A stretch of 64,000 nt of DNA from Apostichopus japonicus (lineage: Eukaryota; Echinodermata; Holothuroidea; Aspidochirotida; Stichopodidae), in NCBI RefSeq assembly GCF_037975245.1, contig NC_092564.1:17285484-17349483 (forward strand), given 5' to 3'. Each line of letters starts with the position of its first letter. Positions within the stretch are counted from its first letter, which is position 1. The notes under the pieces are model-generated. The model was not told the DNA's origin, made no database searches, and worked only from the letters and a program-made list of their open reading frames with translations. A program made the translations under genes and the position numbers. Shown one piece after another: positions 10,917 through 16,900 of the stretch.

Positions 10917-13900
10917 GTGAGATCATTATTCTATCACTGCATGTATCTTAAACTGTACAGTAAGAGTACAGAACAATCCCATACTGGCAATTTAGCCACG
11001 AAGATTTCAAACTGCCTAGAATTCTATCAGTGGACTGGTAAGATTTCATTGGCCACCCTTGTAGTACTCTATAGATCTATAGATCTGTTGCTCAAATAAG
11101 TTTTTTTACAGCCAGTCTTCATATATTTTGCCACTTTAGGATCGTGTGAATTTTAATGTTCATAACTTTATAATACTGGCACAGTAAACTGAAGGTAAAC
11201 ATGCCACTGTACCTGTTCACTCTTGGGAATTGTTTTCAAAGAACAGACAAAAGAGTGAGTGGCCTGTATTTATTTATTTTCCCTTTTTTTTTTTGGGGGG
11301 GGGGCTAATACTATAGCTGAATTAACAATCCACTTGATATGTTGCCAAAATCAATATATTTCAATAAGCCAGGCAGACACAATGTTTTTCAAAAAAACAG
11401 AGCTCTGGCTTATAGTTCCAGATGATAAAAATAATTCCTGTTCTGATCTATTATACAGTACAGTAGATTCCTGCATCCCTTATAGTTTCATCTTTATATG
11501 AACCATGTCAGTGTTTTTGTCCATATAGCTGTGTGGCATGTTTCTTCAACTAAAAACTGTGATCATGGCCCTTCTGTTGTTTTTCATCAAATAAATTCCT
11601 TCATTCCTTAATAAGGAACACATTTTTTGGTGAGAAGTGTAGGATTGCCTTACAGACATTTTTCATCCCATGCATACCATTTTTCTCTGGAGATATTCAC
11701 CACAGGGGATCTAATTTACTTAGTGTGCAGGAACATCTGTTCATCCATTCTTTTTTCCCAAACAGCCGAGTATTGAGCTTCCATGCAGTACAGTGTAGTC
11801 TATTTGTGATGCATACTGCAGTAGTAGAGATTATAAGGGTCATACAAGTACAGTACAATGTGTTTATCTCCCCCCTTCATTTATTCCCCCCCCCATTTTA
11901 CTGACATTGTTTGCTATAAACTGTAAATTACGAGGGTTTCTTAAAATTATGTTTTCAAAAGAAGATGCTCCCAACTGTGATTAGTTTGCTCAAAAGGTGT
12001 AGAGTACGCATTGACAAATGTTGAGGCAAAATGGATCTACATGCCATGGTGATAGCGTAACGTACATACAAGCGTGGGTGTGGGTGCATGTGTCTACGTC
12101 TGTGCATGTGTGTGTGCGTGTGTGACACCTTGGCTTGTAAACACTTCGTACTGTACTTGTACAGTACAGTATGTGTCCAGATCCAACTTGCTGAGTGCAA
12201 TATAAGAAACAGGTCTATATTTTATGTAAAGGTCAAAGGTCATTTTAAGTCAAAAAGCCTAAAACCCCATGCTTTATTAAGTTCATACTGACTGTACAGT
12301 ATATGTCTCCTTTGATGAATGTGTTAACCGCCTACTGTTCTGTAGACATGTCAACATCTTTGGAAGACAAATATTACAGAACTTGAAGTCAAGGAGGGAT
12401 CAAAGTCTGAAAACCATATGTGAGCCCAATCTGCCTATAGAAGATCAGCTTGGTTCCATTAAATTAGATGAACATGATATCAGACTTGTAGATCCCTCTC
12501 TGCTGAGCACAAGAACCCCCTAAAGAAACTGGTGGAGTTCAAAGGTCAATTGAGCGTGGACATGTGATTCAGTCTATATGCATAGACTACTGTACATCTT
12601 GAAAACTTGTAAACAGGATGTTATGACTGCAAAAGTTAGAGTTTTGATGAAATTCTTGTTGGAACATAGGTCTGCATCAGTGCAAGAACCACAAGTGCTG
12701 ATCACTTGAAGTCAGTAACTGGTCAACATAAAATATCTTGTTTGCATTGTTGAGTATTGTTGAATGTTCTTAGTGTCCTAAGGAATCACTGAGCCAACAG
12801 TATGTATACAGTCTCTCTGCCTTATTCTTTGCGGAGAGGAAACCTACCCCCCCTGGTTGCATGCGTGCATGTGATACCATTTGTAAACAAGGATAACTTG
12901 AAAAAACAAAAACACATATATGGGGGTTGAACGTCATACATACTGAACTGTATGATTGTACAGTGTATGATTGTGTATTGACAGCAATTCTAAGTAAGCG
13001 ACTTTAGGGTCTGGTGTACAGCACAGCTCTGCCCTGGAGATACTGAAAACTGTACCTTCCATCACCCCTGGGAGTCCCTCCATCACTCTCTCTTGGTAGG
13101 AGTAGACAATATTTATAATAAGAGGTCTCGGTACAAACATGATCTGAAAACATTCCTTTCGAGAACAATATAGACTGAGTACATTTTTAAATGACAGACT
13201 GTGTTTCATGACAGCTGCACACATTTTAGGCAGAGTTGTTTGTTCTAATTATAGCCTTTGTTGCCAATAAATTGCTGCACGAAATCGGAAGACTTCATTG
13301 TTCCCTGTACGAGGTTACTGTGACCTCAAGCGTATATATATATATGTATATATATATATATATATATATACATATATATATATATATATATATATATATA
13401 TATATATATATATACAGTATATATATATATATATATATATATACATATTTATAACTAGAGAAAACCATAGAAATAATATATGACTTATAATTGACAAATA
13501 AGGAGTAAAGTTTTAGAAAATATATTTGAATTTTCGGTCCCCTGGGACCTTCGCCAGCAATACTTGGCAGTCGAATGAAAAGTGCAAAATGTACTGTAAC
13601 ACAATGAAAGTATGACGCTAGATAAGTGTATGACTACAGAGGAAGCGGATTAAGGAGCAAAGAATGGATTACATATGCTTGTAGAACTCATAGTTGTTAA
13701 GGGGTCCCAAGTCTTTGTTAAGGCCGGTGATGTGAGACTGAATACGAAAGAGCCAATCGATTTCTTAGCTGATTTGAAGTTTGAGGCAATTAAAATACAT
13801 TTTAGGTTTTTCAGAGAATATATATATATATATATATATATATATATATATATATATATATATATATATATATATATATATATATATATATATATATATA

Positions 13901-16900
13901 TATATATAAATTTTGATTTTTGCAACCAAACCTCTACTCAGAGTTTCATGCTTACTAGCAATCATCAGGAGGTGTACTAAAAAGCTATCTCTCTTTCATC
14001 TTAGTTTTGACTTTATTTTGGGGGTGTTTTGGTTGGTGTCTGCAACTTGCGAGGATTTCTGATCTTTTGTTCAAGAGCAATGATCTATTATCGCTAGTTT
14101 CTCGGCCTGGCATAAATTGCAAGAACCTGAGCTGTTGCCCTGACAATGGACCAGGAGATTTGGAAGGCTCTATTACTTTCTTTTAGAGACCAAACATGTT
14201 TTGAAAGCTCAGTTTCTCTGTGGTATTTCTTCAAGTTGAACGACTTTTTGTGGTTATTAAACCTTGTTTTGAACTGCCCTCCGCACATACCAATATAAAT
14301 AGACTTAAAATCCCCAGCAGTCACTTCAGCTTTGTATACTATGGAGGGGGTCAAGCACTCTCCTCCGAGGGGGCAGGTCTCTCGCATTCTGCAGTTGCAT
14401 CCATGCTTGGGTGAATTCTAGCCCTAATCTCTTGAACAAAAGATCAGAAATCCTCGCAAGCTGCAGACACCAACCAAAACACCCCCAAAATAAAGTCAAA
14501 ACTAAGATGAAAGAGAGATAGCTTTTTAGTACACCTCCTGACGATTGCTAGTAAGCATGAAACTCTGAGTAGAGGTTTGGTTGCAAAAGGTTTGGTCGCG
14601 AGTTCCTGCTTGCGGGAAGATCACATATACATACATACTTACATACAAAAATCAAAATTTACATTACGCTCTTCTTCATAACGTGGAATTGAGCACTCTA
14701 TCGTGTTCTACTTGGAACATTTTATACACTTCTATATATATATATATATATATATATATATATATATATGTATACATATATATATATATATATATATATA
14801 TGTATACATATATATATATATATATATGTATACATATATATATATATATATATATATGTATATATATATATATATATGTATATATATATATAGCGGGAGG
14901 CCCATGGTTCGAATCCCGGTGGAGGCTGAAAGTTTTTTCACTGTTCTTGATTTTCCAACTCATTACGATTTTCATTTATATATATATATATATATATATA
15001 TATATATATATATATATATATATATATATATATATATATATATATATATATATATATATATTATATATATATATATATATATATATATATATATATATAT
15101 ATATATATGTATATATATGCATCGATATATATATATACACATATGAAAACGTAATGAGAACTGAAGGATAAGGATGTGCGTTATTGATGCTTTATATAGC
15201 TGTTCAATGTCGCGACAGACGATTAAAGAACCAAATTCTCTCTCCTTTCCGCAGTGTCTTTCTCCCGCAAGTCTTTTAGCCGCCATAGGTCTACATCCAA
15301 CAGACACACTGAACAGTTCCCGATTTCTTCAGCTCTGCCCAATCTTGCTCCAGCAAATAGATATCCATGCCTGCCAGGGGGACCACCATGACCACGGAGA
15401 CGTACCTATGGGAGGGGATTCCAGAGAGACTCGAGACATGAGAGAAGGTAGGCTTTATGTCTCCGTGGTTTTTCAGCAGGGGCGGATCCAGGGGGGGCCC
15501 GGGGGGCCCGGGCCCCCCCTTTTTGAAAATCCTGATTTTTTTTTTTTTTTTACCGCGTTCGAGGGAAAGGGCCCCATGCGTGATCAGTGGCGTAGCTACG
15601 GGGGGCCTGAAATTGCAGACATGAGATCCATATTTTCAGGCTAGGTACATGCTGCTTAGAATACTCGGGAAGTGCCGTTTCCAGCCATCTGGGGGTTTGT
15701 AAAGCCAAAAATTTTCTTCTACGCTCCGCGCCAACCGATGATGGCGCTCCGCTTAGATAGTCTTACGTTCAGGCGCGGCTGGACCAGTCAGACCCCCCCC
15801 CCCTGTCACAAATCCTGCATCCGCCCCTGATTTGTCATTGAATATTCCACAAAACAACTTTTTATGTCCACGAAACTGTCGAAACATGATTTTCACTACT
15901 GGTAGAGATAAAATATTGGGAATTCTGAATTTCCTACAAACATGCGGCTGTGCCTGTTCAATACTCACTACTGTATCGCCTTAAAAAATGATGAGTGGAA
16001 ATAGTTTCTCCAGGACCGTATCGTATCGTGGGTATCGAGTGCGTCTGATATACGAACGTACGTAGTACGTACGTACGTCTATGATGATATGCACTGTACT
16101 GTACTGATAAAAACATAGGTGAATTTCACTCCATGGGAGTGATCACTGAGCACATTCCGGTATAAGAGTGAATTTCCACTCCATTGGAGTAAATCTTAAC
16201 TCCTAATAGAGTTATATTCACTCATATTAGGAGTGAGGGTTTACTCCAATAGAGTTAAATTTCACTCTTAATTTGAAGTGCGCCGAGTGATCACTCCAAT
16301 GGAATGAAATCCACTCATTTGTTTTTAGAGTGTTGCTAGATATATGAAGAAGAAATTTACATACCAATAAATGTTATCGGTCATCGATTGGCACAAAAAG
16401 CCAGATTCTGATGACAGCTGCCTCAAGAAACCCAATAAATGGCCTAATAAGCACCGAGCCACCAATGTGGACCATTACCGAAACATCGATGCGTGTTAGT
16501 CTTCCACCCCCTTCCTCTAATGCTATTTAAGTCCACATGTGGGCATATCCTGCAAATCTACCGGTAGCCCACAGGGGTTTGAGTTGGGAGATAGGCCTTG
16601 ACAGCTTGAAACGACAAATGATGCCAACTTCCCTCAAGTTAAAAGTCTGGCTGAGTTGGCAAGGCCAGTCAGCATGAAAGAGAAAAAACTTTTTTTGCAT
16701 TTCTGTCACCAAAGTTGCACATCTTTTTGGTTGCTATTTTGCCTCACAGGTGCCATCTCCTGCGATCTGGGGGGTGCTGAAATCTCAAATTTTCTCTGTA
16801 CGCTCCGCGCCAACCAAGGTGGCGCTCCGCTTAGATAGTAAACTCCGCCCCCCCCACAAGAAAGAACAGCCCCACATGGCCCCCCCCACTCAAAAAATCC

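Follow-up and report, generated by a model that had tools for sequence, protein, structure and literature searches.

Penelope-like elements (PLEs) have been described in most detail here from two systems. In the Poseidon PLE of Anolis carolinensis (PAc), a GIY-YIG nuclease is joined to a telomerase-like reverse transcriptase (RT), and a hammerhead lies at the junction of the pseudo-long terminal repeat (pLTR) and the open reading frame (ORF; PMC11167929). With a preference for AT-rich DNA, the purified PLE protein cuts and extends both DNA strands, and its reverse transcription begins at either of two neighbouring internal RNA sites; the stretch between these two start sites constitutes the tail (PMC11167929). 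For Penelope of the bdelloid rotifer Adineta vaga, the excerpts of PMC3846280 considered here describe inverted pLTRs, palindromic copies and a 31-bp tail that is optional on one of the inverted terminal repeats, with "simple AT-rich sequences" as preferred targets.

Here we report three PLE families, A, B and C, from a 64,000-nucleotide stretch of contig C4 of the sea cucumber Apostichopus japonicus (C4:17285484-17349483, called the window; the genome comprises 671.6 Mb in 35 contigs). We propose that these elements use pre-existing (TA)n as a landing site and that the cut strands prime reverse transcription at two start sites of the element RNA, a reading to which we give a probability of about 80%. 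What is observed in the DNA is TA on both sides of insertions, two fixed types of element end, one of each in two-ended insertions, truncated halves in opposed orientation, and one empty paralogue that holds (TA)n. Cutting, priming by TA ends and action as a dimer are inferred by analogy with the Anolis element.

Like PAc, the elements show GIY-YIG and RT sequences and an optional tail matching two adjacent start sites, and most copies of B and C carry a putative counterpart of the hammerhead at the pLTR-ORF junction; an AT-rich target and the cutting and extension of both strands would be further likenesses (PMC11167929). Unlike PAc, they meet (TA)n at 96/104 sampled ends, and in all three families a two-ended insertion appears to draw on both start sites, one at either end; tail length is 31 nt in family A but 76 nt in family B. 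The inverted pLTRs, the tail on one of them, the palindromic copies and the simple AT-rich targets of A. vaga Penelope all recur. The target site duplications of 8 and 9 bp described there would be hidden here by (TA)n, and no many-copy count in the excerpts of that report establishes a single tail for each two-ended insertion as a rule (PMC3846280). A PLE preference for simple AT-rich targets is thus already known (PMC3846280 and PMC3124438, both in excerpts). A dinucleotide repeat also serves as landing site for non-LTR retrotransposons with microsatellite specificity, among them Togen with its (TG)n target; according to the excerpts of PMC4640811, these belong to another element class and use a restriction-like endonuclease instead of the GIY-YIG nuclease seen here. 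In the literature searched, by title and opening of the abstract, we found neither (TA)n-targeting PLEs nor the pairing rule for ends described below; a report in Craig et al. 2021 or in Cervera and De la Pena 2014 is possible, and Craig et al. reportedly mention insertion into dinucleotide repeats for some PLEs.

Comparison of flanks reveals two alternative 3′ end points in each family, named Short and Long. Long lies beyond Short by 31 nt in family A, by about 34 nt in C and by 76 nt in B. This extension matches the known PLE tail. Folding of the tail RNAs gives z-scores of −3.0 for B, −1.9 for C and 0.7 for A, with no structure common to the three families. As (TA)n follows either Short or Long, no single fixed position of the element RNA serves as its template.

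Genomic copies were sampled as the best-scoring 40 for each family, out of 75, 164 and 1369 candidates (1369 for family C). They provide 108 located ends, or 104 distinct ones once 4 segmental duplicates are set aside. At 96 of these 104, a TA run of 12 nt or longer begins no more than 25 nt from the element end; typed by script, they divide into 23/23 Short and 14/15 Long ends for family A, 14/16 and 15/17 for B, and 17/19 and 13/14 for C. Most of the copies sampled elsewhere therefore do not end in unrelated sequence, the outcome that the initial annotation had named as adverse to its proposal of (TA)n targeting. As a control, such a run lies within 15 nt downstream of 48/61,198 window positions outside the PLE zones; these hits stem from three runs, and the figure becomes about 0.13% at 25 nt by arithmetic. 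Median pairwise identity between sampled ends is 0.946 to 0.97, in a search that favours copies close to the query; because of it we consider many copies to be young.

Exact pattern scans of the whole genome, with reversed-pattern controls, cover families A and C; the evidence for family B comes from sampled loci. For family C, TA directly follows the Short end at 123 places (23-nt anchor), and TA follows the Long end at 55; for family A, the counts are 20 and 16. All controls give 0. A 37-mer shared within family C occurs at 352 places genome-wide; the counts above cover those that fit an end pattern and do not amount to a genome-wide percentage.

Family homology was also mapped over 80 segments, giving 94 clusters with duplicates kept in; here a TA run had to lie within 40 nt of the cluster side. 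TA is found on both sides of 49 clusters, on one side of 31 and on neither side of 8, the remaining 6 reaching the edge of the fetched DNA. Some of the one-sided clusters are halves of one insertion, e.g., C1:13601781-13603375 and 13603478-13605033. Family B in the window is likewise enclosed, by the (TA)n of 13818-13908 and by the one that begins at 14733. As TA flanks both sides in 49/94 clusters, insertions sit inside (TA)n.

The two-sided clusters also show how the ends combine. By script, 21 of the 49 are Short/Long, 14 Short/truncated and 14 Long/truncated, with no Short/Short and no Long/Long. A Short/Long cluster holds two oppositely oriented copies, each ending outward. In the other 28/49, the truncated side also meets TA. 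The split of 21 to 28 is approximate, because remnants of the other end type are seen by eye on at least 3 of the 28 "truncated" sides (C17:36717136, C15:16731721 and C5:14177042); in addition, C14:897488, counted as one-ended, has a side typed Long in a separate typing.

The same mixed pairing emerges from lists of pairs, of which those from sampled loci and those from the whole genome overlap. At sampled loci, a first script types 20/21 independent pairs as mixed. The remaining pair is the window copy of family B, which was first read as Short/Short owing to an inserted stretch and is Short/Long by its outer border. Outward-facing family C neighbours within 6 kb, taken from a list of the first 100 of the 123 Short places, are mixed in 23/23 cases (13 Short-Long, 10 Long-Short); were 23 Short and 23 Long ends matched at random, the probability of an all-mixed result would be 1e-6. 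Outward pairs of family A are mixed in 8/8 cases, including one that is 6.1 kb wide with an internal tandem copy and two that come from a segmental duplication. Across the 21 independent pairs, the gap between the two halves is at most 12 nt in 12 and at most 27 nt in 16, and larger in 5, whose halves are separated by other sequence or by unmatched element; 2 of the 12 closest joins rest on the second most common alignment border.

We picture the insertion as follows. The PLE protein would cut a pre-existing (TA)n tract, and a cut strand ending in TA repeats would prime reverse transcription of the PLE RNA at the Short or the Long internal site. If both strands are primed, one would start at Short and the other at Long. 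The two 5′-truncated complementary DNAs (cDNAs), joined head to head, would then give a (TA)n tract followed by the Short end of the inverted half, and next to it the other half, whose Long end meets (TA)n again. If a single cDNA is kept, its truncated 5′ side would be joined directly to the other (TA)n end. The use of each start site once might be explained by two unlike halves of a dimer, or by two RNAs held together. The rule of one Short and one Long end would thus link the two RT start sites known in vitro to the two strands of a single break, which makes dimer models testable.

Several observations suggest that (TA)n was there first. The site C19:7853163 (L089) is an empty paralogue of C19:7783134, which carries a 3,072-bp element: its left flank is 95% identical, the right flank is present too, and between them lies a TA tract, interrupted once, with no element. 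For the insertion at C16:4923684, the left flank has a paralogue at C16:4951052, where an element-free, long (TA)n leads into a different right flank. These two sites came from a joined-flank query of six insertions, in which C19 gave a two-flank paralogue with (TA)n, C16 a one-flank paralogue with (TA)n, and C2 two one-flank paralogues, one of which was read and is without long (TA)n; of the other three, two matched only their own site and one had no match listed (best 40 of 246 candidates scored). Compound microsatellites border insertions as well, TG/TA on both sides of C5:21656588 and CA/TA on one side of C6:1601327 and C16:35080296. Genome-wide, (TA)12 runs preceded by G or C number 27,318 on both strands; the "reversed" pattern is itself a TA run (23,708), so that it provides no control for this count. 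Together, the compound tracts and the (TA)12 runs mean that (TA)n exists without these elements. In the duplicated copies of one insertion, C16:5774231 and C16:5961948, the first TA run measures 79 and 39 nt, respectively; tract length thus drifts after insertion.

The following points weigh against the use of a pre-existing (TA)n tract with priming on both strands. The C19 pair is the single two-flank empty site found, and it is a paralogue rather than an allele; moreover, the filled site has about 85 bp between the TA and the shared right flank that are absent from the empty one. The right-flank paralogue of the C2:31479063 insertion, C6:8489099 (86%), has only a short AT-rich stretch; its left side is non-homologous, and it is no true empty site and of no help on this question. 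By script, 8/104 ends are without TA. They comprise a tandem-copy junction (L015), six older or broken ends (L020, L030, L045, L046, L081 and L085) and the right end of the window B copy, whose tail comes after some 56 inserted nt and then reaches (TA)n at 14,733. A single element end is found by script in 28/49 two-sided clusters, and we do not extend the claim of two-strand priming to those 28; the broader statement that every complete insertion is a Short/Long pair was dropped after this recount (21/49 Short/Long, 28/49 with one element end). The sampled copies are the best-scoring ones among their candidates. Finally, Frangieh et al. (PMC11167929) observed no difference between strands in the start site.

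The initial annotation had left two options, that the element targets (TA)n or that it generates or extends (TA)n at its 3′ end. The second, in which untemplated or slipping synthesis at the priming site makes or greatly lengthens (TA)n on an ordinary AT-rich target, is unlikely in our view. It would account for the long tracts beside PLEs, whose uninterrupted first TA run has a median that ranges, depending on family and type of end, from 31 to 70.5 nt, compared with the shorter, interrupted tract at the clean empty site; it would also suit the C2 paralogue without long TA and the position of 5/6 window TA arrays next to PLE pieces. Against it stand the truncated sides, which border (TA)n without any element terminus, the empty paralogue that already holds (TA)n and the compound tracts flanking three insertions. 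The 27,318 (TA)12 runs, of one class only, far outnumber the counted A and C ends, and the 79- and 39-nt runs of the duplicated insertion indicate that tracts drift afterwards. Generation by the element is therefore not needed, and the small empty-site sample allows for some lengthening. Targeting, in turn, is upheld by the (TA)n on both sides in three families, the TA at truncated sides, the compound microsatellites and the empty paralogue with (TA)n.

Landing in (TA)n could also be only apparent, if insertion were wide and selection had kept only the copies in (TA)n or AT-rich DNA. PLEs are indeed said to favour AT-rich DNA in general (excerpts of PMC3846280 and PMC3124438); with many copies young and 96/104 ends at (TA)n, and with a pairing of end types that selection would not fix, we regard this as very improbable. 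An artefact of assembly or sampling is the least credible explanation: TA arrays are hard to assemble and the DNA search scored only the best 40 of each candidate set, but the exact A and C scans, with controls at 0, give the same ends and pairing, and flanks beyond the TA differ at most loci compared.

Use of (TA)n as a landing site could be part of a broader scheme, for which we see even odds. In it, PLE integration would be an asymmetric two-primer process, a broken (TA)n having both strands primed with exactly one Short and one Long start; in this genome, the (TA)n would be a landing pad shared by the PLEs with a small hammerhead element and a tRNA-like short interspersed nuclear element (SINE), both probably non-autonomous followers, families stacking in one array. 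A PLE with strong (TA)n preference would be a repeat-targeting retroelement, and this preference would explain the clustering of PLE pieces, SINE-like pieces and long TA arrays in the window. The genome in any case holds many records of PLE integration with readable ends.

In the window, the PLE fragments and their (TA)n arrays, the latter called by Tandem Repeats Finder, are arranged as follows (positions in the window; strand where it applies).

3669..3846: (TA)n array adjoining the tail of the family A fragment, 89.5 copies of AT
3847..4302, minus strand: family A PLE fragment, 5′-truncated, with its Short 3′ end at 3847 and a GIY-YIG remnant; genomic copies reach at most 93% identity over query 48-506
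3894..3928, minus strand: hammerhead-like stem II plus GAAACGTC of family A, no CTGANGA core
4376..4453: (TA)n 5′ of family A, separated from it by 73 unassigned nt
13333..13444: (TA)n array at the family C Short end
13449..13816, minus strand: family C PLE fragment, 5′-truncated, with its Short end at 13449 and only the C-terminal end of the endonuclease ORF, as compared with the ORF of L077
13522..13564, minus strand: degenerate family C hammerhead, with CTGGCGA instead of the family's CTGACGA
13818..13908: (TA)n common to families C and B, i.e., two PLEs in one array
13912..14731: family B insertion, its left half on the minus strand with Short at 13912, its right half on the plus strand with Long at 14731, joined near 14418
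13931..13972, minus strand: hammerhead motif of the family B left half, core intact
14094..14417, minus strand: GIY-YIG-like coding remnant of family B, its Y.G..R..H pattern aligned with A and C; no Pfam GIY-YIG match
14534..14575, plus strand: hammerhead motif of the inverted family B right half, core intact
14662..14731, plus strand: family B Long-end tail; further B copies also stop at (TA)n with this tail
14733..15137: (TA)n array on the family B Long side, broken by a SINE-like unit at 14893-14975

The initial annotation had read the three fragments as copies of one family with (TA)n at the 3′ end. We reject this: they belong to three separate PLE families (A, 3847-4302; B, 13912-14731; C, 13449-13816), and (TA)n often lies on both sides. 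The earlier observation that the minus-strand tail side of all three fragments adjoins (TA)n is correct (3669-3846, 13333-13453 and 13818-13908). The end of the B copy had been placed at 14,590; the copy in fact extends to 14,731, through an inverted half that ends Long, and the next (TA)n starts at 14,733. Two different PLE families in one (TA)n array are found at window 13449-14731 and also at loci L025, L005 and L012.

On sequence grounds, all three families are assigned to PLEs, through domain content for A and C and through the tail for all. Inverted terminal copies, 5′ truncation and an optional 3′ tail are all present, as in PLEs. Family C ORFs elsewhere in the genome match Pfam RVT_1 at 1.4e-13 (L077) and 1.2e-09 (L074), and that of L077 also carries a GIY-YIG-like end. 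The scanned ORFs of A (L020) and B (L037) give no Pfam RT match; family A has a YIDD motif, by eye. A sequence search of the PDB returned only weak RT matches, the best at 0.0059.

The GIY-YIG remnants proposed earlier are borne out by Pfam for a relative of family A (L010, PF01541 at 1.1e-06, above the cut-off). The family A remnant of the window itself does not reach the cut-off (E=0.012). For B and C, the scanned ORFs give no Pfam GIY-YIG match and the Y.G..R..H motif is recognized by alignment only. Compared with the L077 ORF, the remnant assigned to 13,449-13,805 starts only after the YIG motif and holds just the C-terminal part of the endonuclease.

The core expected of a minimal type I hammerhead in the terminal repeat, CTGANGA..GAAA, is present in 31/33 B ends, 24/33 C ends and 0/42 A ends (window A included); shuffled ends contain it in 34/6600, 5/6600 and 3/8400 cases for B, C and A, respectively. 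The hammerhead-like motifs noted earlier in all three window fragments thus keep the core in both B motifs, deviate from it in C (CTGGCGA) and lack it in A. Centroid folds of the B and C motifs place stems I and II around the core; compared with shuffles, C folds better (z −2.1) and B does not (z 0.7). Rfam gives no gathering-level match in the window, and hammerheads are absent from its matches at E values of at most 10 for 3600-15200 and at most 1 for 9 loci. The hammerhead is dispensable for insertion in vitro (Frangieh et al., PMC11167929), and any role of it here is one that we infer.

Other repeats occur in the window and at (TA)n. Arrays of 16- and 22-nt units (TTCGCCCAAC...) at window 5119-6383 form a large inverted repeat and match Rfam microRNA precursor families, all below their cut-offs. 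A (TA)n array at 57525-57607 has no PLE piece recognized beside it by eye.

A small repeat of about 190 nt, Z, has a hammerhead core in most copies and is found at L011 (C20:9756568), L024, L028, L029, L036 and L039. It shows alternative short and long ends at (TA)n, and an inverted twin form in L011. In carrying a hammerhead core, it resembles the metazoan hammerhead retrozymes, as described in the excerpts of PMC7229834. It is possible that Z is a non-autonomous user of the same PLE machinery.

The tRNA-SINE-like unit (GGTTCGAATCCCGG) lies within (TA)n at window 14893-14975, and a partial, inverted unit starts at about 15143, by eye. At 7/8 distinct sampled places, two of which represent a segmental duplication, the end of the unit is followed by TA.

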